From Phycisphaera sp. (lineage in GTDB: Bacteria; Planctomycetota; Phycisphaerae; Phycisphaerales; Phycisphaeraceae), in NCBI GenBank assembly GCA_016125215.1, contig WGMF01000037.1, positions 1 through 32,503 of the forward strand: a stretch of 32,503 nt of DNA, read 5' to 3'. The stretch's first letter is position 1. Each line of letters opens with the position of its first letter. The position numbers were made by a program, and so were the translations under genes. Below the pieces are notes generated by a model. It saw only the letters and a list, made by a program, of their open reading frames with translations, was not told the origin of the DNA and made no database searches. Positions 7,982-32,352 of the stretch are shown here, piece after piece.

Positions 7982-8037
7982 ACACCTCTATCACATTGAC
8001 CACCCCATGCGCACGGAAAAATCCGGGTGCGGGGAGC

Positions 8038-8128
8038 AACCGCAGATTGCGCAGATTTCACAGATCAATGCAGATTGGGATCAGAAAAATCTGTCTTGAA
8101 TCTGCGTCATCTGCGTAATCTGCGGTTT
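8038..8128. repeat. Palindromic repeat family A, copy 1
   Basis: Left arm AACCGCAGATTGCGCAGATT and right arm ending AATCTGCGGTT, both built from CGCAGAT units. It lies between the response regulator and histidine kinase genes and could fold as a hairpin in the transcript. Confidence 0.75.
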
Positions 8129-8249
8129 CTGTCTCGGTGCATTGTTTACTCGGATCGCTGTGGTTCAAGTCGTTGACTGCCTTCACGACTGACCCGCTTG
8201 TTCTTCGTAGCAAGCCCCCGTCCGCGCTTGACCGTAAAATGTCAGCCGT

Positions 8250-9639: not shown

Positions 9640-9748
9640 CGTAGGGTTGGCCAAGTCTTCGCGGTCACCACCCGAAACGACCTGTCCCGCATGCCCCGAA
9701 AAACCTTGCCACGAAACGGTGGGCCGCGCAGACTTGGCCCACCCTACG
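9640..9748. repeat. Palindromic repeat family B, copy 1
   Basis: About 109 bp bounded by CGTAGGGT and ACCCTACG. Inner arms are GGCCAAGTCTTCGCGG and CCGCGCAGACTTGGCC. Related copies are at 13880-13984 and 25749-25853. It lies between the kinase and the polysaccharide lyase gene. Confidence 0.8.
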
Positions 9749-9866
9749 GCGTCAAGCCTAACCTACTTGCTGTCGTGAGCGTCAAAACACGATTGCCGTG
9801 CTGTTCTTCGCTAAAATAACACCGAGCACGGCGCATGCCGGTGCTGATTCAGGAAACAGATGAGTC

Positions 9867-13837: not shown

Positions 13838-13879
13838 ACGTGAATTGCGGTCACGCCAAGCATGTAGCGTGGGCCTTTT

Positions 13880-13984
13880 GTAGGGTGGTGCCGAGTCATC
13901 GAGGCCCACCATTGACATTTACGACCGGCAATTGCTCTGGAATTATACTGTGATCGTGGGTCGCGAAGACTTGACCCGCCCTAC
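13880..13984. repeat. Palindromic repeat family B, copy 2
   Basis: Starts GTAGGGTGGTGCCGAGTC and ends GACTTGACCCGCCCTAC. On the minus strand its last bases GTAG provide the TAG stop of purD. Copies 2 and 3 also share flanking sequence (GGGCCTTT before GTAGGGT). Confidence 0.8.
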
Positions 13985-15318
13985 TTTTTCATCACGCGAT
14001 ATCCGATGTCCCGGCGGAAGAACGCGCCTTCGAAGTGAATCTTGTCGCACGCGGCGTTGGCGCGTTGTTGGGCTTCGGCCAGGTCTTCACCCATCGCGCA
14101 GACGTTGAGCACTCGGCCGCCGGAGGTGACGACCTGGCCCTCTTTGTTCAGCGTGGTGCCGGCGTGGAAGACTTTGACGTTGGGGTCTTGTTCCGCGGCT
14201 TCGATGCCGGTGATGATTTTGCCTTTTTCGTACTGGCCGGGGTAGCCGCCGCTGGCCATGACGACGCAGCAGCAGCAGCGTTTGTCCCAGGTGAGGGAGA
14301 CTTCGTCGAGCGAGCCGGCGGACGTGGCAAGCATGATCTCCATGAGGTCGCCTTGCAATCGCATCATGAGCGGTTGGCACTCGGGGTCGCCGAAGCGCGT
14401 GTTGAACTCGAGGACCTTCGGGCCGCCGGCGGTGAGCATCAGGCCCGCATAAAGCACGCCCTTGAACTCCACGCCTTCGCGTTTCATCGCATCGACCATC
14501 GGCACGAGGATGTCGCGCTCGACGATCGCCATGATCTTGTTGTCCATCAGCGGTGTCGGACAATAGGCGCCCATGCCGCCGGTGTTCGGGCCGGTGTCGC
14601 CCTCGTGTGCTTGTTTGTGGTCCTGCGCGGGGTCTAACACATAGATATTCTTCCCGTCCACGAGCGCGAGCACGGAGAGCTCCTGACCGACGAGCCGTTC
14701 TTCGATCACCGCGGTCGCGCCCGCATCGCCGAACGCCTTGTCGATCATGACTTGTTTGACCGCGTCCTCGGCTTGCTCGGGGTTGTCACAGACGATGACG
14801 CCTTTGCCTTTGGCAAGGCCGGCCGCTTTGACGACAACGGGGGTCTCGTGGGCGTGGACGTAGGAGAGGGCTGCGTCGGGGTCGGTGAAGATGCGCGCCT
14901 CGGCGGTGGGGACGTTGGCGGCACGCATGAGTTGTTTGGAATAGGCTTTGTCGGCTTCGAGTCGGGCACCGGCGGCGACCGGGCCGAAGACTGCGCGGTC
15001 GGGCCGGGCGAGGCGGTCGGCCAGGCCCTGCGAGAGCGGGTCTTCGGGGCCGATGACGACGAGGCCGACGTTGTTGTGGCGGCAGAAATAATCGATGGCG
15101 TCGGCGTTCTTGGTGTTGACGGGTTCGATGGCCAGGTCGATGTTCTTACCGACTTTGGCGGTGCCTGCGTTGCCGGGGGCAAAGAAGATCTGCGCGCAGA
15201 GCCTGGAGCGTTTGAGTTTCCAGCCCAGCGCGTGCTCTCGCCCGCCCGAGCCGATGACGAGGACGTTGGTCGGGGTGGTGACGGGAGAGATGGGTTTGTT
15301 CTTGGTTCGTTTGCTCAT
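13981..15318 (-). CDS. purD: Phosphoribosylamine-glycine ligase (GAR synthetase)
   Basis: 445 residues; second step of purine synthesis, joining glycine to phosphoribosylamine with ATP. NVLVIGSGGREHALGWKL opens the protein (family vLviGsGgREHAl), followed by APGNAGTA, IGPEDPLSQGLAD, KAYSKQLM, PVVVKAAGLAKGKGVIV (ATP-grasp), DHKQAHEGDTGPNTGGMGAY and LEFNTRFGDPECQ, all purD hallmarks. The N terminus has about 18 extra residues (MSKRTKNKPISPVTTPT) before the usual start. An odd point is four consecutive Cys (RCCCCVVMASGGYPG) where one or two are usual. Its TAG stop falls in repeat family B. Confidence 0.95.
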   Translation of the reverse strand: MSKRTKNKPISPVTTPTNVLVIGSGGREHALGWKLKRSRLCAQIFFAPGNAGTAKVGKNIDLAIEPVNTKNADAIDYFCRHNNVGLVVIGPEDPLSQGLADRLARPDRAVFGPVAAGARLEADKAYSKQLMRAANVPTAEARIFTDPDAALSYVHAHETPVVVKAAGLAKGKGVIVCDNPEQAEDAVKQVMIDKAFGDAGATAVIEERLVGQELSVLALVDGKNIYVLDPAQDHKQAHEGDTGPNTGGMGAYCPTPLMDNKIMAIVERDILVPMVDAMKREGVEFKGVLYAGLMLTAGGPKVLEFNTRFGDPECQPLMMRLQGDLMEIMLATSAGSLDEVSLTWDKRCCCCVVMASGGYPGQYEKGKIITGIEAAEQDPNVKVFHAGTTLNKEGQVVTSGGRVLNVCAMGEDLAEAQQRANAACDKIHFEGAFFRRDIGYRVMKK

Positions 15319-16399: not shown

Positions 16400-17593
16400 A
16401 TGACGACGACAAGCACAGACACCAGACCCACGGACGGCGACCTTGGCCCGGTGGCTAAGCGCGATTGGGTGGCGCTGTCGCTTGTGCGCGGACTGGGTCC
16501 ACGGTTGACGGCGCGGTGTCTCGAGTTGATGGGATCGCCACGGCGTGTGCTCGAAGCGTCGTCGGCGGAGCTTGCGCGCGTGGAGGGCATCGGCCCGGCG
16601 CGAGCCGACGCGATGCGCCGCGACATCCAGAAAAACGCCGGCGAAGGCGCGATCGACCGGGAACTCGACCTGATCGCCGAGATGGGGGTTGAGTTGATCG
16701 CGTTGGATGATTCAAGATACCCCCGGCTGCTCCGGTTGATCCCCGACCCGCCCCCCGTGCTTTATGTGCGAGGAACGATCGAAGAGCAGGACGCGGTGTC
16801 TGTGGGCGTCGTCGGCTCACGTCGTTGCTCGCACTACGGGCGTGAGCAGGCGGACCGTTTTGCCTCGGTGCTCGCGCAGTCGGGTTTGTGCATCGTGTCC
16901 GGTGGGGCCATGGGCATCGACACCGCGGCGCACGTCGCGGCGCTGCGTGCGGGCGGCCGAACAATCGCGGTGATCGGTTCGGGCCACGCCAAGCCCTACC
17001 CCCCCTCTAACAAGGCGCTGTATGACCGCCTGGCTGAATCGGGCCAAGGCGCGGTGGTCAGCGAACTACCCATGACCGCGCCGCCCCTGGCAGAGAACTT
17101 CCCCGCGCGCAACCGCATTATCTCCGGCTTGTCGCTGGGCGTGCTTGTCATCGAAGCCGCGGTGCGCTCCGGGGCGCTCATCACGGCGCGCCTGGCTTCT
17201 GAAGACCACAACCGTGAGGTCATGGCGATCCCCGGCCGTATCGATACGCCTCACGCGCTGGGGAGCCTGAAAATCCTGCGCGAGGGCTGGGCTGGCATGG
17301 TCATCCAACCCGGCGACGTGCTCGATGCGCTGGGCGAAGCCGGCCAACTGCTCAAGGCCCAGATGCCCGGTGAGAACCCAAGCCCCAAAGCCACGCTTTT
17401 CGATCAGAACCTGGGCCAGACGCAGAAACGCCTGCTCGAACTTCTCGAAGAACCCCGCACACTCGACCAGCTTGCCCTGGCCTCGGGCTTGACCGTGGCG
17501 CAGGTCCAGAGCGACCTCACGATCCTGCAGGTGCGCAGCCTGGTGGCCAAACAAGGCACCGCCTGGTCGCGTAGACTTTCGGGTAAATCATGA
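16400..17593 (+). CDS. dprA: DNA-processing protein DprA/Smf
   Basis: 397 residues. An N-terminal helix-hairpin-helix segment (RVEGIGPARADAM) precedes the Rossmann-like DprA domain: GVVGSRRCSHYG, VSGGAMGIDTAAH, AVIGSGHAKPYPPSN, ENFPARNRIISGLSLGVLVIEAA and GALITARLASEDHNREVMAIPG. A C-terminal winged helix (LLELLEEPRTLDQLA) follows. DprA loads RecA onto incoming single-stranded DNA in natural transformation. ATG at 16400 was chosen because GGGAAG lies eight bases upstream; an in-frame start at 16328 lacks this. The stop overlaps the hisD start as ATGA. Confidence 0.95.
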   Translation: MTTTSTDTRPTDGDLGPVAKRDWVALSLVRGLGPRLTARCLELMGSPRRVLEASSAELARVEGIGPARADAMRRDIQKNAGEGAIDRELDLIAEMGVELIALDDSRYPRLLRLIPDPPPVLYVRGTIEEQDAVSVGVVGSRRCSHYGREQADRFASVLAQSGLCIVSGGAMGIDTAAHVAALRAGGRTIAVIGSGHAKPYPPSNKALYDRLAESGQGAVVSELPMTAPPLAENFPARNRIISGLSLGVLVIEAAVRSGALITARLASEDHNREVMAIPGRIDTPHALGSLKILREGWAGMVIQPGDVLDALGEAGQLLKAQMPGENPSPKATLFDQNLGQTQKRLLELLEEPRTLDQLALASGLTVAQVQSDLTILQVRSLVAKQGTAWSRRLSGKS

Positions 17594-18915
17594 CGCTCAA
17601 AATCATCCAACTCGACTCGGCTGCCGCTCTGCTCGATCAGCCGATCTACCGCGAGCTGCGTGCCTCGGCCACACTTTCAGATGAAGCCAGCGACACCGTG
17701 TCTCGGATCATCGAAGACGTGCGCGGACACGGCGACGACGCGGTTGTGAAATACATGCGTCAGTGGACCGACCCGGCCTTCGACGCCTCACGCATCGCTG
17801 TGCCCCCGGGAGAGTTGGACAAAGCCCTTGATGCCACGCCCAAGGCTATCCGTGATGCGCTTGAGCTTGCGATTGAAAACGTCGCGGCCTACCAGCGGCA
17901 CATCAAGCCCGCCGACCCTGAACCCGTGACCCTTGCCGGGGCGGAGCTTGGGCTTCGCTTCACACCGATGGCCAGCGTGGGCCTCGCGGTGCCGGGGGGC
18001 AAGGCGTCGTATCCGTCGAGCGTCGTCATGCTTGCCGTGCCCGCGATTGAAGCGGGTGTGCCCCCGGAAGCCTTGAGCATTGTCAGCCCTCCCCCAACAA
18101 GGCGCGAGGGTGAAGAGGCGGGGGATATCTCACCGTTGGTCCTGGCGGCCTGCAGGCTTGTGGGTGTGAAAAAGGTCTACCGCATCGGCGGGGCACAGGC
18201 GATCGCTGCGCTGGCGCTGGGCACACAGCGCGTTGAAGCTGTTGATTTCATCGCCGGCCCGGGCAACCTCTACACGCAACTGGCCAAGCAGCAGCTCATC
18301 GGCCGCGTGGGCATCGACGGGTTCTACGGCCCGAGCGAGATCGTGACGATCGCGGACGACACCGCCGACCCCCGGAAGGTTGCCTCGGACCTGATCGCTC
18401 AAGCCGAGCACGACCCAGGGCGTTGCCTGCTGATTTCGTGGTCGCGCGATGTCATTGATAAGATCAATTCTGAACTATCTAATCAGGTATCAAGACGTGG
18501 CCGCCGCGCCGCCATCGAACAGTCGTTCGATAAGTGGAGCGCGGCCTTTGTCGTGCCCTACGAGACGGCGGCCATCGCGGTGTGCGACCTGTTCGCGGCC
18601 GAGCACGTGAGCCTGGCCGTGGCCGACCCGGTGGCACTGTTCAAGAAACTCAAGCACGGCGGGGAGTTTTTCCTCGGTGACACGACCCCGGTGGCCGCGG
18701 GGGATTACTACGCCGGCCCTTCGCACTGCCTGCCCACCGCCACGACCGCGCGCTTTGCCAGCGGCGTGAGTGTCTACACCTTCCTCAAACGCTCGGGCAC
18801 CGTGCGCTACCCCGGCAAGACGATGCCCCCGGAAGCGGTCCAGGCGATCACGACACTCGCCCAAGCCGAGGGCCTCGACGGCCACGCGCACTCAGCCAAG
18901 CTGCGAGGGGAGTAG
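17590..18915 (+). CDS. hisD: Histidinol dehydrogenase
   Basis: 441 residues; last two oxidation steps of histidine synthesis, histidinol to histidine with NAD. Zinc ligands by comparison with E. coli HisD are Gln271 and His274 (QAEHDPGR), Asp372 (GDYYAGPSH) and His432 (EGLDGHAHS); the catalytic pair is Glu338-His339 (AAEHVSLA). GLAVPGGKASYPSSVVM and FIAGPGNLYTQLAK are family signatures. Residues 167-180 (SPPPTRREGEEAGD) form a short insertion relative to the usual SPP..G.I. Coupled to dprA by a four-base overlap. The TAG stop is formed by the first bases of repeat family A copy 2. Confidence 0.95.
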   Translation: MTLKIIQLDSAAALLDQPIYRELRASATLSDEASDTVSRIIEDVRGHGDDAVVKYMRQWTDPAFDASRIAVPPGELDKALDATPKAIRDALELAIENVAAYQRHIKPADPEPVTLAGAELGLRFTPMASVGLAVPGGKASYPSSVVMLAVPAIEAGVPPEALSIVSPPPTRREGEEAGDISPLVLAACRLVGVKKVYRIGGAQAIAALALGTQRVEAVDFIAGPGNLYTQLAKQQLIGRVGIDGFYGPSEIVTIADDTADPRKVASDLIAQAEHDPGRCLLISWSRDVIDKINSELSNQVSRRGRRAAIEQSFDKWSAAFVVPYETAAIAVCDLFAAEHVSLAVADPVALFKKLKHGGEFFLGDTTPVAAGDYYAGPSHCLPTATTARFASGVSVYTFLKRSGTVRYPGKTMPPEAVQAITTLAQAEGLDGHAHSAKLRGE

Positions 18916-19058
18916 CCGCAGATGAACGCAGATGAACGCAGATAGAACCCATTCAAGACCCGAAAGCCATAGTTCATGCTCACGCACGTTGATTACTATT
19001 TTTGTTTCATCAATGCTTATTGCCTTGATCTGCGTACATCTGCGTTCATCTGCGGCTA
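18913..19058. repeat. Palindromic repeat family A, copy 2
   Basis: Left arm TAGCCGCAGATGAACGCAGA (continuing with a further unit to 18943) and right arm ending TTCATCTGCGGCTA, separated by a less GC-rich loop. Arms of about 30 bp pair almost fully. It fills the hisD-bioA gap and its first three bases are the hisD stop. Confidence 0.8.
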
Positions 19059-19065
19059 ATTCCCC

Positions 19066-20505
19066 ATGCCCGATCTTGCCCAACGCGACCTTGACGTGCT
19101 CTGGCACCCGTGCAGTCAGATGCGGGACTACCGAGCCTTCCCACCCTTACATGTGGTAAGTGCGGAGGGCGTGCGCATCAGGCTCGCCGATGGGCGTGAG
19201 TTGATCGATGCGATCTCGAGCTGGTGGTGCAAGACGCTGGGCCACCGACACCCCAGGCTCATCGCGGCGCTGCGCGAACAAACGGGTAAGTTCGAGCACG
19301 TGATCCTTGCCAACACGACCAACGAGCCGATCGTCCGGCTGTGCCAACGACTCATCGAGATGGCGAACGGGTCCGGTACCTCCCACTCACCCCTCACCCG
19401 GCACCCAGCACATTTCACAAAATGCTTCTTCGCTGACAACGGATCGACCGGCGTCGAGGTGGCGCTCAAGATGGCGCTGCAGGCCCAGACCCAGCGCGGC
19501 CGCCCCCGGAGGACGAAGTTTGCCTCTCTAATCAATGGTTATCACGGCGAGACCGCCGGAGCGATGTCCGTCAGCGACTGCGACCTCTACACGTCCCCCT
19601 TCGGCCCGATGATGTTCGGATGCACGAAGCTGCGCGGGCTGCCATACCGCACGGGCCCAGACGACCCGCGCTGGCTTGATGCCTCCGACGAGTGGCCCAC
19701 GATCGAAGCGCAGCTCGACGCGGTGAGAGACGAACTCGCTGCGATCATCTACGAGCCGGTGCTGCAGGGCGCGGGCAACATGAGGCTCTACAGCCCCGAC
19801 CTGCTCGTGCGGTTGCGCAGGTGGGCGGATGCTCACGGTGTGTACCTCATCGCCGACGAGATCGCCGCGGGGTACGGGCGGTTAGGCACGATGTTGGCGT
19901 CGCAGTTGGCATTGAATTCATTTCAACCACACGGGGGACCGGCGATGATTCCGGGGGCATCGCCGGCTTTATGTGAGAATTTTCCACGTCCCGATTTTGT
20001 TGTGTTGTCCAAAGGCCTGACCGGCGGGTTCCTCCCCATGTCCGTCGTGCTCACCACGCAGGAGGTCTACGACCTGTTCGACGCGGACTACCTCGAAGGC
20101 AGGGCATTTCTGCACTCAAACACCTACGCAGGCCACGCGCTGGGGGTTGCCCTGGCGCACGCGGTGCTCGACGTGTTCGAGCAGGACGACATCCTCAGCC
20201 ACGTCGCACGCATCGGCCCAACGCTCCTCGAAGGTCTTCGTTCCCTTGCCCCCTCCCGGCCCTACCTCCACAACTACCGGGGCTGCGGCATGATGGCGGC
20301 GGTCGACCTCCGCCAACCCGACGGCTCACCCTTGCCACGTGAAAACCGCACCGGCTACCGTGTCTATCAGGTAGCCGTCAAACGCGGTGCCCTGCTCCGG
20401 CCCCTCGGCGACACGATGTATCTCTTCCCTCCGCTCGTCACGCAGCCCCCGGATGTCGACGCCATGATCGCCATTCTGGCTGACAGCCTCGACGCGGTGA
20501 TGTGA
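19066..20505 (+). CDS. bioA: Adenosylmethionine-8-amino-7-oxononanoate aminotransferase
   Basis: 479 residues; the biotin-pathway aminotransferase making diaminopelargonate from KAPA. HPCSQMRDY (family HP.tqm.dy), ISSWWCKTLGHRHP, FFADNGSTGVEVALKMA, GYHGETAGAMSV, EPVLQGAGNMRLY, IADEIAAGYGRLGTM and LSKGLTGGFLP with PLP-binding Lys316 identify it clearly. It is 30 to 50 residues longer than usual. The excess lies in two stretches: residues about 104-117 (TSHSPLTRHPA) and about 281-306, the second of which contains a copy of dispersed repeat C in frame. Both are placed between conserved blocks, so activity may be kept. No other biotin genes are in the window. Confidence 0.93.
   Translation: MPDLAQRDLDVLWHPCSQMRDYRAFPPLHVVSAEGVRIRLADGRELIDAISSWWCKTLGHRHPRLIAALREQTGKFEHVILANTTNEPIVRLCQRLIEMANGSGTSHSPLTRHPAHFTKCFFADNGSTGVEVALKMALQAQTQRGRPRRTKFASLINGYHGETAGAMSVSDCDLYTSPFGPMMFGCTKLRGLPYRTGPDDPRWLDASDEWPTIEAQLDAVRDELAAIIYEPVLQGAGNMRLYSPDLLVRLRRWADAHGVYLIADEIAAGYGRLGTMLASQLALNSFQPHGGPAMIPGASPALCENFPRPDFVVLSKGLTGGFLPMSVVLTTQEVYDLFDADYLEGRAFLHSNTYAGHALGVALAHAVLDVFEQDDILSHVARIGPTLLEGLRSLAPSRPYLHNYRGCGMMAAVDLRQPDGSPLPRENRTGYRVYQVAVKRGALLRPLGDTMYLFPPLVTQPPDVDAMIAILADSLDAVM
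19933..19973 (+). repeat. Palindromic repeat family C, copy 1, inside bioA
   Basis: 41 bp with arms ACCGGCGATG and CATCGCCGGC around ATTCCGGGGG. It starts on a codon boundary and encodes GGPAMIPGASPAL (from residue 290). Same unit as 21504-21543, 22754-22792 and, in shortened form, 25920-25950. Confidence 0.8.
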
Positions 20506-20567
20506 ACGATCAAGCGTCATCACATCGCACATGTTCGGCGCAGTTGTTGCGCGACGACCCAAAAACT

Positions 20568-20614
20568 AAACCCCCCCACGCCGCTACACCGATGGACAAA
20601 CGTGGTGGGTGTTT
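20568..20614 (+). terminator. Possible bioA terminator
   Basis: AAACCCCCCCACG pairs imperfectly with CGTGGTGGGTGTTT across a 20-base loop, 63 bases after bioA. The long loop and lack of a T run make it uncertain. Confidence 0.35.
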
Positions 20615-20692
20615 AAGCCATCGTAAGTCCATCGTAATCGGTCGAAGGATTCGGCCGACCCGTCCCCTCACGCGAACATGGAGGTTCGTCGC

Positions 20693-21439
20693 ATGTCCAC
20701 CGCCCGTATCAATCTATTCTGGCTGGTCCTGTTCACACTAACGCTGCCCATCGCGGTGGTCGTCTCCACACGTTTGGCCGGCCGTAGCTTCGAGCGCGTC
20801 AAGCTCGGCCAGCAATCGGTGAGGGTCAAGGGTTATGCCGAGAAGAAGATCGTCTCCGACCGCGCGTCGTGGTCGGCTGGAGTCGTCCAGCGTGACGCCG
20901 ACCGCACCACCGCCTACCAGGCCCTCGAACGCGACACCCAGACCGTCCTGGCCTACCTCAAACAGCACGGCTTTGCGGACGAGGCTGTGACGCTCGGCCC
21001 GGTCTCCATCGAGCAGGTCTACGCCCGTGACGCCAAGGGCAATCGCACCAACACCATCGAACGCTACGAGGTCAGCCGATCGCTCTCGATCACCTCGACC
21101 GATGTCAACCGCATCACCGAGACCGCGCGCGAGTCGGGCGTCCTCGTCGGCGAGGGTATCGAGCTTAACGCCTCATCGCCCAGCTACCTCTACACCCAGC
21201 TCGACGACATGAAACTCACCATGCTCAGCGAAGCCACCGCCAACGCCAGGGATCGTGCCAAGCTCCTCGTCGAAAGTGCGGGCAACACGCTCGGCTCACT
21301 CGTCGAGGCCAGCCAGGGCGTCTTCCAGATCACCCCCGAGTTCTCCAGCGAGGTCTCCGGCTACGGCGAAAACGACACCTCGTCACTCAACAAAGTCATC
21401 AAAGCCGTCGTCACCACCGAATACCTCATCGCCCACTGA
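20693..21439 (+). CDS. SIMPL-domain (DUF541) protein, membrane-anchored
   Basis: 248 residues. A hydrophobic N-terminal segment (about residues 7-27, INLFWLVLFTLTLPIAVVVS) anchors it, followed by a SIMPL/DUF541 domain: SVRVKGYAEKKIVSDRASWSAGVVQRD opens it, and KLTMLSEATANARDRAKLLVESAGNTLGSLVEASQGVFQI is the strongly conserved later part. Members are periplasmic or membrane proteins of unclear function, sometimes linked to stress or oligomerised surface assemblies. ATG at 20693 was chosen over ATG at 20678 because GGAGG (20680-20684) sits eight bases before it and overlaps the upstream ATG. Monocistronic as far as can be seen. Confidence 0.85.
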   Translation: MSTARINLFWLVLFTLTLPIAVVVSTRLAGRSFERVKLGQQSVRVKGYAEKKIVSDRASWSAGVVQRDADRTTAYQALERDTQTVLAYLKQHGFADEAVTLGPVSIEQVYARDAKGNRTNTIERYEVSRSLSITSTDVNRITETARESGVLVGEGIELNASSPSYLYTQLDDMKLTMLSEATANARDRAKLLVESAGNTLGSLVEASQGVFQITPEFSSEVSGYGENDTSSLNKVIKAVVTTEYLIAH

Positions 21440-21762
21440 CCCCCCAGCCCCCGACCCCCCGGAAGTTGTGCCCCGGAAGATGTCCCCCGGATGTCTCTTT
21501 CCTCATAAAGCTGGCGACCCCCGGAAGTATCGCCGGTCCCCCCCGCATTCCCTGTTCCTGCGGCCTGCCAAAACGACACGCCCGACGCCCCATCCAAGCA
21601 CGTCAAGGCAGACGGTGGACGTGGATCACCCAACCCCCGCCCACGCCCGAAGAACACCAAGTTAAACACCAACAGTAGTTTACGGCCACAACCCAGCATG
21701 CCAGCTACCGGGGAAAACGGCACTGGCTTTGCCTCTAACCCTGTAGAGGATTCTCTACCCCT
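21440..21762. other. Gene-free stretch with CCCCGGA repeats
   Basis: It holds repeated CCCCGGA(A/T)G units from about 21458 to 21490, then family C copy 2, then unremarkable sequence. Just before the next gene, GTAGAG and CTCTAC (21743-21758) form a 6-bp stem. Confidence 0.6.
21504..21543 (-). repeat. Palindromic repeat family C, copy 2
   Basis: Reverse orientation relative to the bioA copy: CATAAAGCTGGCGACCCCCG continuing through ATCGCCGGTCCCCC. Copies 2 and 3 also share a CCCCCGGATG lead-in about 20 bases upstream. Confidence 0.8.
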
Positions 21763-22356
21763 ATGGTCAATGTGCGCCAACATTTCGACGCCTTCAACCC
21801 CGACCGTGGTGATGCGATCCCCCGACCGAGGCTCAACGTCCTGCTCACCGAGGACCGCCCGCGCGAGCAGTGGCATTGGTCCCGCCAACTCGTCGAACTG
21901 CTCAAGCCCATGGGCGTCGCGGGTTACGTCGTCCACACCGGCCGCGAGGCCCTGGACCTGGCAGAAAAACTCGAACTCCACGCCGCGGTCATCGACCTGG
22001 GCACCCCGCTCGACCCCGTCCACACCCCGCCCGGCCAGTCCCGCCTGATGAACCGCACAACCACGCAACCCACCGGCGAACTTTGGCTCCTCGAACTGCT
22101 CCGCCGACTGCCTGCCAAGCCGCCCGTTGTCGTCATCCAGAGCCGATCGTTCACGCAGGCCCAGGTCGACCGCGTCCTCTCCGAGGCCCTCCGCCTCGGC
22201 GCGTTCTCCGTCCTCAACAAACCCATCGCACTCGAACAAATCCTCAGCGTCTTCCAACGCCTCCTCGACCGCCGATACCGCGGCACCTGGCCCCCCCGGA
22301 ACCCCCGGAACCCCCGGAGCTTTCCCCCCGACGAAACACCACCTTCTAATCAATAA
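21763..22356 (+). CDS. Receiver-like (CheY-fold) protein upstream of groES
   Basis: 197 residues. The core looks like a response-regulator receiver: LNVLLTEDRP (acidic Glu30-Asp31), AAVIDLGTPLD (Asp78 at the phosphoacceptor position), VVVIQSRS and GAFSVLNKP (Lys153). A 20-residue insertion (about 84-106) follows the putative phosphoacceptor, so signalling by phosphorylation is not certain. No output domain. The C-terminal tail WPPRNPRNPRSFPPDE is read from repeated CCCCCGGAA units and is probably a recent extension. It lies 63 bases before groES on the same strand, so it may be cotranscribed with groESL. No strong ribosome binding site is visible. Confidence 0.7.
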   Translation: MVNVRQHFDAFNPDRGDAIPRPRLNVLLTEDRPREQWHWSRQLVELLKPMGVAGYVVHTGREALDLAEKLELHAAVIDLGTPLDPVHTPPGQSRLMNRTTTQPTGELWLLELLRRLPAKPPVVVIQSRSFTQAQVDRVLSEALRLGAFSVLNKPIALEQILSVFQRLLDRRYRGTWPPRNPRNPRSFPPDETPPSNQ

Positions 22357-22377
22357 CCACTCGCCACTCGTCACCAA

Positions 22378-22405
22378 TCACCAGTCACTATTCACCAGTC
22401 ACTAC
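22378..22405 (+). repeat. Two tandem 14-bp repeats before groES
   Basis: TCACCAGTCACTAT followed by TCACCAGTCACTAC, with a partial TCACCAA unit before them. They end six bases before the groES Shine-Dalgarno region. Confidence 0.7.
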
Positions 22406-22419
22406 AAGGAGACTCACTC

Positions 22420-22734
22420 ATGGCCACCGCCACCGCATCGCAAGTCAAGGTCCGACCCCTCGGCGACAAGATCCTCGTTAAGCGCGTCGAAGCCGAAACG
22501 AAAACCAAGTCTGGCATCTTCCTCCCCGAGTCCGCCAAGGAGAAACCGCAGGAGGCCCAGGTCATCGCCGTCGGCGACGGCAAGCTCCTCGACGACGGCA
22601 AGCGCGCCCCGTTCCAGGTCAAGAAGGGCGACCGCATCCTCATCACCAAGTGGGGCGGCACCGAATTCAAACTCGAAGACACCGAATACCTCATCATGTC
22701 CGAGGACGACGTCCTCGCCGTCCTCGAAAAATAA
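22420..22734 (+). CDS. groES: Co-chaperonin GroES
   Basis: 104 residues, usual length for the family. VRPLGDKILVKRVEAETKTKSGIFLPESAKEKPQEAQVIAVG contains the mobile loop that contacts GroEL, and KKGDRILITKWGGTEFKLEDTEYLIMSEDDVLAVLE is the conserved C-terminal half. It forms the heptameric lid of the GroEL folding chamber in the cytoplasm. AAGGAG lies nine bases upstream of the ATG. No CIRCE operator (TTAGCACTC-N9-GAGTGCTAA) is present upstream, so HrcA control of the usual kind is not indicated. A family C repeat begins right after the stop. Confidence 0.96.
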   Translation: MATATASQVKVRPLGDKILVKRVEAETKTKSGIFLPESAKEKPQEAQVIAVGDGKLLDDGKRAPFQVKKGDRILITKWGGTEFKLEDTEYLIMSEDDVLAVLEK

Positions 22735-22753
22735 CCCCCGGATGCCCGCGCTT

Positions 22754-22792
22754 CATAAAGCCGGCGACCCCCGGAAGCATCGCCGGTCCCCC
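22754..22792 (-). repeat. Palindromic repeat family C, copy 3, between groES and groEL
   Basis: CATAAAGCCGGCGACCCCCG continuing through ATCGCCGGTCCCCC; nearly identical to copy 2. As RNA it could fold between the two chaperonin genes and alter their relative expression. Confidence 0.8.
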
Positions 22793-22856
22793 GGTCCCCC
22801 GGTCCCCCTCCCGTTAACCCACATTCACCTTTGCTCAAACAATCGGAGTTAATCAA

Positions 22857-24497
<1,641 letters not shown>

Positions 24498-24500
24498 AAA

Positions 24501-24533
24501 ACCCCGGCCAAGGATGGCCGTCCACTCCGGGGT
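24501..24533 (+). terminator. Hairpin directly after groEL
   Basis: ACCCCGG at 24501 pairs with CCGGGGT ending at 24533, with an inner GGCC/GGCC pair. It starts four bases after the groEL stop. No T run follows, so termination strength is uncertain. Confidence 0.5.
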
Positions 24534-24559
24534 GACAAGTCATTACGATTGCCACACGC

Positions 24560-24585
24560 AACGGGACGGCGAAAGCCGTCCCGTT
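24560..24585 (+). terminator. 11-bp perfect hairpin with GAAA tetraloop
   Basis: Arms AACGGGACGGC and GCCGTCCCGTT around GAAA, a very stable fold. It ends six bases before the Shine-Dalgarno of the AT-rich gene at 24603, so it may be a groEL terminator or a 5' leader structure of that gene. Confidence 0.6.
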
Positions 24586-24602
24586 GTATTGAGGAAGTCT
24601 GT

Positions 24603-25727
24603 ATGAACAAGACAAGCCCAATTAGGCGGAGCGTGAAATATGTCGCTTGGGCTTTGACAACCTTTGTCTTTCCTACAATCGCAATATATTTTGCTTGGCC
24701 CTCGAAAGCACCAAAGCTAGAAGTACATGTCCATTCAACAATCCCTGAGTTTTTACGACTAAATTTCTGGAATCTTCCAATCAAGACGTATTGGATCGAT
24801 CAGAATAACCTTGATCTCGCGCCCAAAGAAGTTTCGCTCGTTCAAGTAACAATTGTTTCACTTCGCAATACCGGTAGCTCTCCATTCAAGTGGACGAAGG
24901 TTGTCGATGATAAAATTAAGATCAGTATCAACGGGAGTAAAGGCGAAATATTGTCTGTAAAGAGAGCTCCATGGCACGATGGTGAATTTAATCGAACTAC
25001 CCGCTTAGAAACACACAAACTCAATGGTTACTTCACTGTAACCACTGATTTTCTAAATGCCAACGAGAGTCTCGATTTTCTGGTTATACATACTTTTGAT
25101 AAACTCGATGTCAATGCGAGCGGTCGAATTGAGGGGCAGCACAACATTAAAGTTGTTCGAGAAACATCGAACAATACCCAATTGCAGGGCATAGTGGGGA
25201 TTCAGTATTTTACACTATATGCTTATTGTGCTGGCTTATTCTCGGTGGTGTGCGCGAGATACTATTTCGTCATGAAAAAGTCGTTTATAAAATCCCTACT
25301 ACCCTCAATACATGTAGTAAGTATGCCTTTTAGTATCATGCTTACGTTGACTCCTCGGATCACTTCGATATTGTCTGCGTGCAACGCGCTGAACATCTAT
25401 TTAGCTGGAATCGTGTTCTTGGGCCTATTAATCGGCGTGCAAATACTCTGGCTGCGTGTATTTTGCGATGTGCGCGAATTGCGCGCGCTGTTTGCATTGA
25501 CTAAAACTGAGTTTAATGAATTGTTCGCTGGAAGAAGTCTTGTGGTTGGGTTTTTTTCTCTTGAAGATGACAATTACGATAAATTATCCAAATTTAGGAA
25601 GCTGTTTATTAGTGATCGTAAATTTGTTTATAAAAAAAGTATTCTCAATAAATCTGACTCTGAGCAAGAGAAGCCGGCGGCGGGTGGCACTGGCGGCTTG
25701 TCCACCGGTGAAAATGCACACGAATGA
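24603..25727 (+). CDS. AT-rich orphan membrane protein, probably acquired
   Basis: 374 residues. Membrane segments at about residues 12-31, 199-221, 233-251 and 262-286; residues about 40-195 form a likely extracytoplasmic beta-rich domain (VSLVQVTIVSLRNTGSSPFKW), and the C-terminal 85 residues are polar and lysine-rich. No family was recognised. The gene is strikingly more AT-rich than every neighbour, with runs such as those at 25560-25660, and uses codons rare elsewhere in the window, which suggests horizontal transfer. GAGG lies before the ATG at 24603; an upstream in-frame start at 24549 would run through the hairpin. The last 20 or so residues (PAAGGTGGLSTGENAHE) are suddenly GC-rich and come from repeat family E, which also supplies the stop. 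Confidence 0.75.
   Translation: MNKTSPIRRSVKYVAWALTTFVFPTIAIYFAWPSKAPKLEVHVHSTIPEFLRLNFWNLPIKTYWIDQNNLDLAPKEVSLVQVTIVSLRNTGSSPFKWTKVVDDKIKISINGSKGEILSVKRAPWHDGEFNRTTRLETHKLNGYFTVTTDFLNANESLDFLVIHTFDKLDVNASGRIEGQHNIKVVRETSNNTQLQGIVGIQYFTLYAYCAGLFSVVCARYYFVMKKSFIKSLLPSIHVVSMPFSIMLTLTPRITSILSACNALNIYLAGIVFLGLLIGVQILWLRVFCDVRELRALFALTKTEFNELFAGRSLVVGFFSLEDDNYDKLSKFRKLFISDRKFVYKKSILNKSDSEQEKPAAGGTGGLSTGENAHE
25688..25710 (+). repeat. Repeat family E, copy 1, at the end of the AT-rich gene
   Basis: CACTGGCGG and CCACCGGTG arms around CTTGT form an imperfect hairpin. The same core GGCGGCTTGT(C/T)CACCGGTG recurs at 25863-25882, and both copies are followed about ten bases later by ACGAATGA, whose TGA is the stop of this gene. 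Confidence 0.65.
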
Positions 25728-25748
25728 AAGCAAGTAGGACGGGCCTTT

Positions 25749-25853
25749 CGTAGGGTGGTGCCGAGTCTTCGAGGCCCACCATTTTGTGATCTTTAACCCG
25801 TTGTGAAATGACATGCCGTTGTGGTGGGCCGCGCGGACTTGGCCCACCCTACG
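25749..25853. repeat. Palindromic repeat family B, copy 3
   Basis: Bounded by CGTAGGGTGG and CCACCCTACG; inner arms TGCCGAGTCTTCGAGGCCCA and GGGCCGCGCGGACTTGGCCC. 105 bp, the same length as copy 2. Confidence 0.8.
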
Positions 25854-25858
25854 CCGGG

Positions 25859-25882
25859 TTCCGGGCGGCTTGTTCACCGGTG
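25859..25882 (+). repeat. Repeat family E, copy 2
   Basis: GGGCGGCTTGTTCACCGGTG, with ACGAATGA following, as at copy 1. Copies 1 and 2 flank family B copy 3. Confidence 0.6.
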
Positions 25883-25919
25883 TCTGTGACGAATGACGGG
25901 CGGGTCCGATGATTGATCC

Positions 25920-25950
25920 GGGGACCGGCGATGACATCGCCGGCTTTATG
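25920..25950 (+). repeat. Palindromic repeat family C, copy 4 (short form)
   Basis: GGGGACCGGCGATGACATCG followed by CCGGCTTTATG. It equals the bioA copy without the inner nine bases TTCCGGGGG, so GGCGATG and CATCGCC are separated by a single A. Confidence 0.75.
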
Positions 25951-26032
25951 TGTGGCCTGTCCACACGTGCGTTGGATGGTCGGCCTTTTCAGTGGCGCGC
26001 GGGTCGGCGGTGGCACACGTTCACGGTGGTCG

Positions 26033-26058
26033 TCTGCGTGATCTGTGAAATCCGCGTT
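26033..26058 (-). repeat. Single arm of repeat family A
   Basis: Contains GATCTGTGAAATCCGCG, which differs by one base from the reverse complement of part of the left arm of copy 1 (8050-8066). The partner arm is missing. Confidence 0.55.
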
Positions 26059-26109
26059 GGGTCGGGGGTGGTCGCCGATCGTGCGGGGTTTGGGGGGAGG
26101 TTGATGTGA

Positions 26110-26130
26110 CCCACGGTCGGAGACCGTGGG
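26110..26130. repeat. 9-bp perfect hairpin
   Basis: CCCACGGTC / GACCGTGGG with a GGA loop. Same build (9-bp GC-rich arms, 3-base loop) as the hairpin at 9583-9603. Confidence 0.6.
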
Positions 26131-26496
26131 CGTTCGGGGGATGGGGTGCGTGTTGCAAACGGGGCGGTGGAGCGCGTGCACCCCCGGTTGCACGCGGCTT
26201 GATTTACCGTTCGCCGAATTCACCAAACCCGTGGAGCGTCGACACCCCCGGAAAAGTCGGCGGCTTAGCATTGAATGCGGGCCGGTGGCATATTGCCACG
26301 TGATGACTTGGTAGGGACGAGCGTCTGTCCGGGGTTCCGGGTGTGGGGGGGGGGTTGGTTGCGGAATTGAGCCCGGGCTACTGCTAAAGTCCTAATGTAT
26401 TTTTATTTTGATCCACCCCATGGCTTGCCTGCTTGCACTTCGGTTTAGGCAAGACAGTGAAACTGGAAAGCGGTCGAACGGGGGTGCTTGCAGTGG

Positions 26497-26524
26497 GTGA
26501 CACTGGCTGGCAAGCCGCCCGTGG
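26497..26524 (-). repeat. Repeat family E, copy 3 (degenerate)
   Basis: On the minus strand GGGCGGCTTGCCAGCCAGTG, matching copy 2 through GGGCGGCTTG and then diverging. Confidence 0.4.
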
Positions 26525-26581
26525 CACACCGATAGTTCTCACACGCATACTGAACGGGTGTTGATCGGTTTCGTGGTGATT

Positions 26582-27433
26582 TTATTTTCCCCACGCTTTG
26601 GGGAAGAGGTACCCGCCTGCCCCGACGCCGGCGCCGTTGGCCCAATTCATGTCGTTGAGCATGTTGTTGGACATCACATCGAAGCGTTTCACGCTGCCGT
26701 CGGTCCTGGCGAAGTTGATGCCGGCGTTGCCGTCGATGTTGCCGTAGTAAAGAGGCTTGTAGGTTTGGGGGAGCCCTGTGACCATGGACCCGCCACGGAC
26801 ATGGCAGGTCTGCAGGGAGCTGTATGACGAGTCGTGAACCCGCCGACAGATGTCGGAGGCCAGGATGTCGTACTCCTGTCCGCTGGTGCCGGTGTAGGCC
26901 CCGAAGATGTTGGTGTCGTCGGGGCCGCGCAGGGTGTCCTCCGGGTTTTTGGGGACGGCATTGCCGTTGACGTCGTTGACTGTTCCATTCTTCAAGCCGC
27001 CGAGCTGGTTGGCATACACGGCGTAATACGCCAAGGCTCCCGAATGCGTCGGCGTCGCTTCGGTGGGCGTGCTCCCGGGATAGACCAGGATACCTTGCGG
27101 GCACCGCCAGACACGGTTGCGCCATGAGCAGTAGTCGCCGTTGTCGTGTTCGCCGCCCATGTATTGGGAGAGCATCGAGAGGTTGTTGCGTGTGTTCCAG
27201 GCCTTGGGAAACAACGGGTATTCGGCTGGGTACACCATCTTGTTGTCAACGCTGTAGGCTGTCAGCGATATGGCAATCTGCCGGAGGTTGCTCTGGCAGA
27301 CCGCGAACCGGGCTGTGTATCGGGCTTCACTGACAGCGGGCAGCAGCACCGCGACCAGCAGCATGACGAGGGTGACCACCACCAGGAGCTCGACCAAGGT
27401 GAAGCCACGTGGGGGTCGTGGCGTTGTGGGCAT
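26582..27433 (-). CDS. Prepilin-type N-terminal cleavage/methylation protein (type II pseudopilin-like)
   Basis: 283 residues. PPRGFTLVELLVVVTLVMLLVAVLLPAV is the type IV prepilin signal: cleavage after Gly10, Phe11 as new N terminus and Glu15 at position 5. The rest has AVCQSNLRQIAISLTAYSVDNK (common in planctomycete prepilin-like proteins) and a C-terminal NFARTDGSVKRFDVMSNNM, close to the H.gG.nv.F.DGSV motif. Planctomycetes carry many such proteins of unknown role, assembled by type II secretion or pilus systems. ATG at 27433 was chosen because the signal starts ten residues later and GAAGGG lies upstream; a longer frame exists but is not family-like. It follows the PEP-CTERM gene on the same strand. 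Confidence 0.88.
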   Translation of the reverse strand: MPTTPRPPRGFTLVELLVVVTLVMLLVAVLLPAVSEARYTARFAVCQSNLRQIAISLTAYSVDNKMVYPAEYPLFPKAWNTRNNLSMLSQYMGGEHDNGDYCSWRNRVWRCPQGILVYPGSTPTEATPTHSGALAYYAVYANQLGGLKNGTVNDVNGNAVPKNPEDTLRGPDDTNIFGAYTGTSGQEYDILASDICRRVHDSSYSSLQTCHVRGGSMVTGLPQTYKPLYYGNIDGNAGINFARTDGSVKRFDVMSNNMLNDMNWANGAGVGAGGYLFPKAWGK

Positions 27434-27587
27434 GAAAGCATCCCTTCGGTGTCGTGTGCGTGCTCGTACCTTCAAACATCGGCCGCGTGGCATTGCCGGG
27501 TAAACAGCCGTCGGAGGGAGGCCTCTCGAACTGATAGGACATTTGATTCCAGACGGGCCCGGGTCCATGCGCTTGGGGGTGAGGGGT

Positions 27588-32083: not shown

Positions 32084-32352
32084 TCACCACAGAGGACACG
32101 GAGCACACAGAGAAAACAAGGAATAAAGAGTGATCCGCAGATGACGCAGATTTCGCAGATTCAAACAGAGGAATAAACCGCGGAGAACGCAGAGTGCGCA
32201 GAGAAGAGTGGTATGAGTTCATAACGTGGACCCGTTGGCTTTCTCAGCGCTCTCTGCGATCTCTGCGGTAAATCTGCCGGATCGAAGCTGCGAAATCTGC
32301 GGATCGGTTCTCTCCGTGTCTTTCTCTGTGATCTCTGTGTCCTCTGTGGTGA
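32084..32352. repeat. Three-layer nested palindrome (family A-type units)
   Basis: Outer arms TCACCACAGAGGACAC (32084-32099) and its exact complement at 32337-32352. Middle arms GATCCGCAG...GCAGATTTCGCAG (32132-32158) and CTGCGAAATCTGCGGATC (32288-32305), the latter lacking one nine-base unit. Inner arms of GCAGAG units at about 32174-32207 and 32244-32272. It fills the gap between the oxidoreductase and the next gene. Confidence 0.85.

Follow-up and report, generated by a model that had tools for sequence, protein, structure and literature searches.

The bioA gene of the window (the whole stretch of 32,503 nucleotides that was analysed) contains in its reading frame a hairpin-forming sequence that also occurs between genes. 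The locus raises the question whether a dispersed repeat has become part of an enzyme here and, further, whether the same place in the protein has received repeats in related genomes.

The hairpin element of bioA and its family

The bioA gene occupies positions 19066–20505 of the plus strand and is an intact open reading frame of 479 amino acids encoding adenosylmethionine--8-amino-7-oxononanoate transaminase. The product scores 425.7 against the TIGR00508 BioA model (cut-off 405), and BioA structures are both its best PDB relatives and the top PDB matches of its predicted model. The element lies at 19933–19973 on the same strand (41 bp, residues 290–302, translated GGPAMIPGASPAL). The first-pass annotation described it as a palindrome starting on a codon boundary. 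The start was placed correctly: the first base of the element is base 1 of codon 290, hence the element is in frame. A hairpin is indeed present as well, but it is not a perfect palindrome, being composed of a GGGGGA head, an 8-bp stem (CCGGCGAT/ATCGCCGG) with a 12-base loop, and a CTTTATG tail. The element is contained in an extra segment that is absent from canonical BioA (approximately 19912–19986, plus strand, residues 283–307) and has a lower G+C content than the gene. The inserted residues noticed earlier correspond to a real additional segment, of which the element provides only 41 of approximately 69 extra bases, about 28 being foreign to it. No Rfam match was obtained in the region 17500–27500 of the window at E values up to 0.1.

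Two intergenic copies are located on the minus strand, at 21502–21542 (62 bp 3' of a DUF541/SIMPL gene) and at 22752–22792 (17 bp 3' of groES and 64 bp 5' of groEL), and an intergenic short-loop form of 34 bp is located on the plus strand at 25919–25952. All three had been pointed out before, at coordinates that were off by a few bases (21504–21543, 22754–22792 and 25920–25950), and the orientation of the first two, reverse relative to bioA, was given correctly. Over the first 25 bases of the element, the best other match in the window has one mismatch. In controls for these 25 bases, the lowest number of mismatches was five both in 200 local shuffles and among 188 other 25-mers of bioA. When all 41 bases are compared without gaps, the best other match in the window differs at 14 positions, as many as the lowest shuffle (14), because the other copies in the window lack two bases of the loop. 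The match of the bioA element to the repeat family exceeds chance.

A genome-wide BLAST search yielded 17 matches including bioA itself. One of them, an intergenic copy beside a NusG-like gene on contig C38, is identical to the bioA element in 41 of 41 positions. A covariance model (R1), whose stem was one column out of register, gave 60 matches in the same genome. The corrected model (R2; stem of 8 pairs, 94.3% of cells paired), run only on the stretches fetched around R1 matches, gave 59 matches; five of these are opposite-strand duplicates, which leaves 54 distinct sites. Thus the genome-wide search for the unit, suggested in the first-pass annotation, finds about 54 sites, and the family extends to a part of genus g16: R1 matched 29 times in G023, 10 in G025, 6 in G024 and once in G027, did not match in G026 or G028 of the same genus, and gave 0–3 weak matches in each of the other genomes. 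Members range from 34 to 43 bp and occur in two forms, one of 34 bp and one of 41–43 bp with TTCCGGGGG in the loop; the consensus is GGGGGACC...CTTTATGA.

According to our own simple gene finder, 46 of 57 element rows are intergenic and 11 overlap open reading frames. Most of the intergenic rows (32 of 46) lie no more than 70 bp from the 3' end of a gene, and in 29 of these 32 the CATAAAG side faces the gene, so that the polarity is nearly constant. The bioA copy has the opposite polarity.

Other in-frame copies in this genome are found in the Pfam-supported long reading frames of DnaK and ValS, and further ones in proline-rich or unassigned reading frames. In DnaK the element is at about 264 and the HSP70 Pfam match resumes at 281; in ValS it is at about 489 and the best tRNA-synt_1 stretch stops at 470, though breaks of this kind can have other causes. 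DnaK was considered as a clean second case of capture. This candidate is weakened by the length of the loop holding the copy, which has 44–82 residues in 22 of 27 DnaK loci of the family anyway (matches with E under 1e-150 among 51 family genomes), 9 residues in four, and could not be parsed in one. The long DnaK stretch precedes an VFDLGGGTFDVS motif, often with an VSLSTKLNPEAC-like core (loci L341–L367).

The BioA loop in distant and related proteins

The loop that holds the element has 30 residues here versus 7 in 77 of 80 distant BioA loci (64 read by script and 13 by eye), the 80 being those kept among the matches listed from 585 relatives. Two of the exceptions have loops of 11 and 17 residues, and one is unreadable. 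According to the first-pass annotation, the insertion would be refuted as ordinary coding sequence if distant BioA proteins had the inserted residues with no similar DNA repeat; the prevalence of the 7-residue loop leaves the insertion standing. Moreover, most profile and PDB alignments of the window BioA break at residues about 280 and 307. Structural modelling, which had been proposed as a further check, placed the insert in the least certain part of an AlphaFold model that is confident elsewhere (mean pLDDT 89.8; below 50 at residues 289–296), computed from an alignment of 55 sequences, 54 of which come from the 80 distant loci. The predicted structure is consistent with a disordered loop.

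BioA matches with E under 1e-60 occur in 11 of the 51 family genomes, and eight genomes (that of the window and seven others) encode the close type, with identity of 62–68%. In an even sample of 397 genomes from the class, three BioA proteins fell under E 1e-90, all of them already in the close set. Between the GR and PDF motifs, which are separated by 13 residues in canonical BioA, there are 36 residues in the window protein, 43 in G034, 41 in G032, 47 in G009 and 40 in G012, and 34, 25 and 15 residues in the orthologs lacking a clear hairpin (G008, G043 and G014, respectively). Five of the eight close orthologs, belonging to five genera, carry an in-frame hairpin repeat in this loop, a recurrence that goes beyond the first-pass annotation. 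The repeats are of four kinds: the element described above, GATGTTC, GATGGC (in two genera) and GGGTAC. The inserts of the four relatives are inverted repeats with arms of tandem heptamers, GATGTTC/GATGTCC in G034, GATGGCA in G032, GATGGCG in G009 and GGGTACA in G012. The inserts of G032 and G009 are of one heptamer type and may go back to a common ancestor. The loops of G008 and G043 are 21 and 12 residues longer than the canonical one and have no clear palindrome, and in the 28-residue loop of G008 folding detected no hairpin (z 0.5); therefore, the loop can grow without a hairpin.

The bioA gene of G009 also carries a second in-frame hairpin, of the GGGTAC type, in another BioA loop (L026:2651–2710). 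The matching site in the window protein, residues about 101–110, is the next weakest stretch of its model.

The expected frequency of such inserts was estimated from 400 kb of G020, which contain 27 inverted repeats scoring 15 or more, versus none in one local shuffle; an internal inverted repeat is present in only one of 284 genes of this region. Given this rate, borrowed from another genome, and assuming independence, the probability that at least four of the seven other bioA orthologs carry an insert is 5e-9, or 1.5e-6 for at least three of seven if the two GATGGC inserts are counted as one event. With an assumed rate of 3% the respective probabilities are 3e-5 and 9e-4. With other hairpin repeats in the same loop in four related genera, the BioA loop gives the impression of a site where repeats land again and again and become part of the protein.

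Heptamer repeats and other enzyme sites in the relatives

The heptamers are dispersed in the genomes that have them in bioA. Counting overlapping matches and not separate elements, the pattern GATGGCRGATGGCRGATGG occurs 93 times in G032, 53 in G011, 29 in G009, 1–9 times in four others and in none of the remaining 44 of 51 family genomes. The pattern GATGTBC occurs 10 times in G034 (four of them in bioA) and nine times in three others together, and is missing from 47 of 51; GGGTACR occurs 90 times in G012 and 34 times in G014, and is missing from 49 of 51. Reversed patterns, used as a control, had zero matches except two in G036, with none in the genomes carrying bioA inserts. In G014 the GGGTAC repeat is present in the genome but there is no insert in bioA.

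We classified 106 heptamer sites of 13 relatives, taken among the matches listed, with some sites at contig ends left out and the four bioA inserts counted in. Twenty-five of them lie in frame in the interior of reading frames, with 50 or more coding-scored codons on either side; 26 are near the ends of reading frames, and 55 are intergenic or at edges. By our test, arms in both orientations are present at 35 of the 106 sites and a single array only at 71; for internal sites these numbers are 11 and 14 of 25. In G012, bioA is the only internal site of 23 among the sites listed. Pfam was run on 27 reading frames of the relatives with internal or terminal sites. The Pfam match is interrupted at the insert or stretched around it in Dus (L114), PurL (L118), an SMC/RecN-like protein (L112), MiaA (L266), HisA (L128, L294) and Maf (L160), and the remaining inserts are terminal, between domains or in unassigned proteins.

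By visual inspection of 19 copies from three genomes, the arms are alike within a genome and the spacers between them look unrelated from copy to copy (L112, L335, L265–L267 and L270 in G009; L152, L160, L327, L329, L330 and L334 in G014; L118, L336, L274, L276, L277, L279 and L280 in G032). Some spacers of G032 hold another GC-rich hairpin. The absence of stop codons from the heptamers was considered as a special adaptation, and this found no support: the tested coding heptamers contain no stop in any of six frames, a property shared by 72% of random heptamers at 65% G+C.

A comparison outside bioA comes from Dus in genus g13. Its loop has 11 residues in G016 and G017; at the same site it measures 38 residues in G019, where it contains a GGGTCTC/GGGTTTC hairpin, and 32 in G020, where the hairpin is of the GATGGCG type. 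All four reading frames are open across the insert site, and the fifth genome of the genus, G018, gave no Dus match. In G014, GGGTAC units were seen by eye ahead of the same GSGDIW motif. The pair of motifs delimiting the loop was found in eight of 30 Dus loci, one of them with an implausible gap of 120 residues, and with so few readable loci the Dus claim draws on four species of one genus, plus G014 by eye. Alignment of short and filled loops revealed no obvious target duplication, loop bases being replaced as well as added.

The linker of MutL holds GATGGCA units in G011 and GATGTCC units in G019. This linker varies in length (25–60 residues) in all 24 of the 30 loci that could be parsed, with repeat signatures in four. 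Inserts in MiaA (G009 and G011) and in HisA (G011 and G025) share the site and the heptamer type within each pair, and hence may be inherited.

Possible origins, known repeats and Y1 transposases

Dispersal of the repeats, their in-frame position, recurrence in one BioA loop and intactness of the genes are observed directly. As an explanation, we consider it probable that the hairpins are repeats of a selfish or neutral nature, that they persist only in places where a flexible loop can accommodate them, and that the BioA loop has been colonised repeatedly by the active repeat of each lineage. Such repeats would spread by copying and would be retained in genes only where they leave the reading frame open and add a floppy loop that the protein can bear. 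The BioA loop preceding the strand that leads to the SKG lysine motif would be one of a limited set of tolerant sites, and for that reason would be colonised again and again. More weakly, the hairpin form of the repeats points to a Y1 (HUH) transposase that would act in trans and move them via single-stranded DNA; the search for a linked enzyme gave none. Several points are against this account: simple copying of whole elements does not predict unrelated spacers between the arms; by our test, 71 of the 106 sampled heptamer sites have a single array only; the bioA element is beside none of the seven Y1 loci within the flanks fetched; two of the five bioA inserts are of one heptamer type; the loops of G008 and G043 are enlarged without a clear palindrome; and the DnaK loop with another copy is long in most family members anyway.

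Colonisation could also have been preceded by a single ancestral enlargement of the loop in this bioA lineage, with later repeats landing in or overwriting a dispensable segment. The recurrence at this site would then be due to its earlier enlargement, the canonical loop not being a target. The enlarged loops of G008 and G043 without a clear hairpin would fit such a history, as would the approximately 28 of 69 extra bases of the window gene that do not belong to the element, the presence of at least two extra residues in all eight close orthologs and the heptamer type common to G032 and G009. On the other hand, the loop of G014 is nearly canonical (+2 residues), and Dus, short in G016 and G017 and filled with two different hairpins in G019 and G020, indicates that repeats also enter short loops. 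We find the ancestral enlargement unlikely on balance, albeit deserving of attention.

Only tentatively do we extend the explanation to a limited, shared set of open enzyme loops that would take any active repeat in frame, repeatedly and independently. Candidates are the BioA loop before the lysine motif, the Dus loop before GSGDIW and perhaps sites in MiaA, HisA and the MutL linker. As heptamer arms are shared and spacers are not, the repeats of the relatives might then be paired inverted arrays written by some process around local or random sequence rather than copies of whole elements.

It is improbable that the recurrence reflects a hot spot at the DNA level, that is, a sequence or replication feature of bioA attracting hairpins, and not selection at the protein level. 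The extra residues begin directly after LASQLA or LATHLA in the window protein, G034 and G009, and after LASHLA in G008 and G043, which lack a hairpin. However, the repeats are not alike, no target motif common to them was apparent, and other genes carry comparable inserts within unrelated sequences.

Still less credible is a domesticated control element regulating bioA as an mRNA structure or as an extra loop. Five genera have been hit in one loop, the element elsewhere lies just 3' of genes with a preferred polarity (29 of 32), as a transcript element might, and the inserts of G009 and G012 fold with unusual stability (z -8.0 and -3.7). Yet the repeats have neither sequence nor size in common, three of the eight orthologs have no clear hairpin, and the window bioA copy combines the opposite polarity with unexceptional mRNA folding (z -1.1; 54 of 128 gene windows are equally or more stable). 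Finally, ordinary coding sequence of a hypervariable loop, matching the repeat by chance or through an assembly artefact, is very hard to believe: such loops do vary somewhat, two of the 80 distant BioA being longer, but the identity in all 41 positions to a copy lying between genes on a different contig, the shuffle controls for the first 25 bases and the in-frame repeats of independent assemblies, one of them a single contig (Dus of G020), all argue against it.

The repeated colonisation that we favour has partial precedents, compared here on the basis of excerpts of the cited papers. Rickettsia palindromic elements and their Wolbachia equivalents are dispersed, occurring between genes and in frame in conserved genes, where the enzyme tolerates them (PMC2229807). 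Our element is likewise dispersed between genes and in frame in the bioA, DnaK and ValS reading frames. The likeness had been proposed in the first-pass annotation, and to judge from the sequences it appears sound: the repeat is dispersed and in frame, and distant BioA lack the segment. It concerns the mode of working rather than kinship in sequence, and the elements differ in length (34–43 bp here versus 105–146 bp in Rickettsia; PMC2229807). Unlike the Rickettsia elements, the repeats of the relatives have heptamer arms and unrelated spacers, and different repeats recur in one loop in several genera.

The GTAG/CGTC REPs are short palindromes in many copies, mostly intergenic near 3' ends and in some cases in frame; in two Xanthomonas species different REPs occupy about the same site of recB (PMC3733652, section 15). 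Our element resembles these REPs (20–40 bp) in size, copy number and mainly intergenic 3' position. Unlike what the excerpts describe for the REP superfamilies, its consensus has no GTAG or CGTC tag at either end, and it does not lie beside the Y1 (RAYT) genes found. The bioA recurrence also differs from intragenic REPs in spanning five genera and four kinds of repeats. Tandem heptanucleotide repeats are represented by the hairpin-forming cyanobacterial STRR (PMC2670836), by the GGGACCG elements of Geobacter metallireducens, which are dispersed tandem 7-bp units, partly intragenic (PMC2700814), and by the G-rich heptamers of Xanthomonas and Nostoc, partly intragenic in Nostoc (PMC4692102). The bioA inserts of G034, G032, G009 and G012 resemble the STRR type in their tandem 7-bp units, whereas the element of the window bioA is not a heptamer repeat. 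Unlike the tandem heptamers as given in these excerpts, the inverted arms in the relatives often enclose unrelated spacers and stand in frame at orthologous enzyme sites. In nematomorph mitochondria, inverted repeats lie within translated genes and both arms encode conserved residues (PMC6649704); here, in contrast, the arms fall in extra, variable residues.

Hence, as far as these excerpts go, coding palindromes (Rickettsia), intragenic REPs and intragenic heptamer repeats (Geobacter, Nostoc) are already in print, and what is new is that different repeats have been captured repeatedly at a single orthologous site. Among the best matches listed from open-licence PubMed Central, we came across no description of one orthologous site being filled by different repeats in different genera. 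The old observation that repeats become protein in Rickettsia is thereby turned into a comparative test: the filling of one loop by different repeats in several genera, set beside the short loops of sister species, makes it possible to measure how often, and at which protein sites, new sequence is accepted. The recurrence of insert-bearing enzymes in the family bears on annotation, structural modelling and the gain of protein loops, and heptamer arms with unrelated spacers raise the question of how such repeats are made.

Seven Y1 matches, six of them over the cut-off, were found in the genome of the window. The bioA element was seen beside none of the seven loci, in flanks of up to 1.5 kb (less at contig ends), and R2 gave nothing below E 0.07 on them. 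At least five loci (L181, L185, L189, L191 and L194) are flanked on both sides by other repeats, as judged by inspection. L191 has the single occurrence of an 8-base stretch from the element, but not the tail. The linkage of the element to a RAYT was therefore rejected for now. In L181, L189, L191 and L194 each Y1 match has its own distinct hairpin repeat on both sides, and the genome contains several pairs of a REP and a transposase.

A second REP-like family (GGTGGGCCGCG..ACTTGGCCCACCCTACG) is present in the window at 9718–9751, 13955–13988 and 25823–25856, with further stretches at 9640–9664, 13858–13913 and 25728–25783. Its GTGGGCCGCG motif flanks the Y1 gene of L185 (contig C51) on both sides, and the family may be a product of this gene. 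Just upstream of bioA, at 18907–18943 and 19028–19064, inverted tandem arms based on GCAGAT surround a spacer, and such arms are also located at 8035–8130 and 32135–32301. Their layout is the same as that of the heptamer-armed repeats of the relatives, but the unit is longer. Inverted arms based on CTCTGTG lie at 32084–32115 and 32321–32352, 205 bases apart and 91% complementary, and CTCTGTG arrays occur also in L171 of G043.
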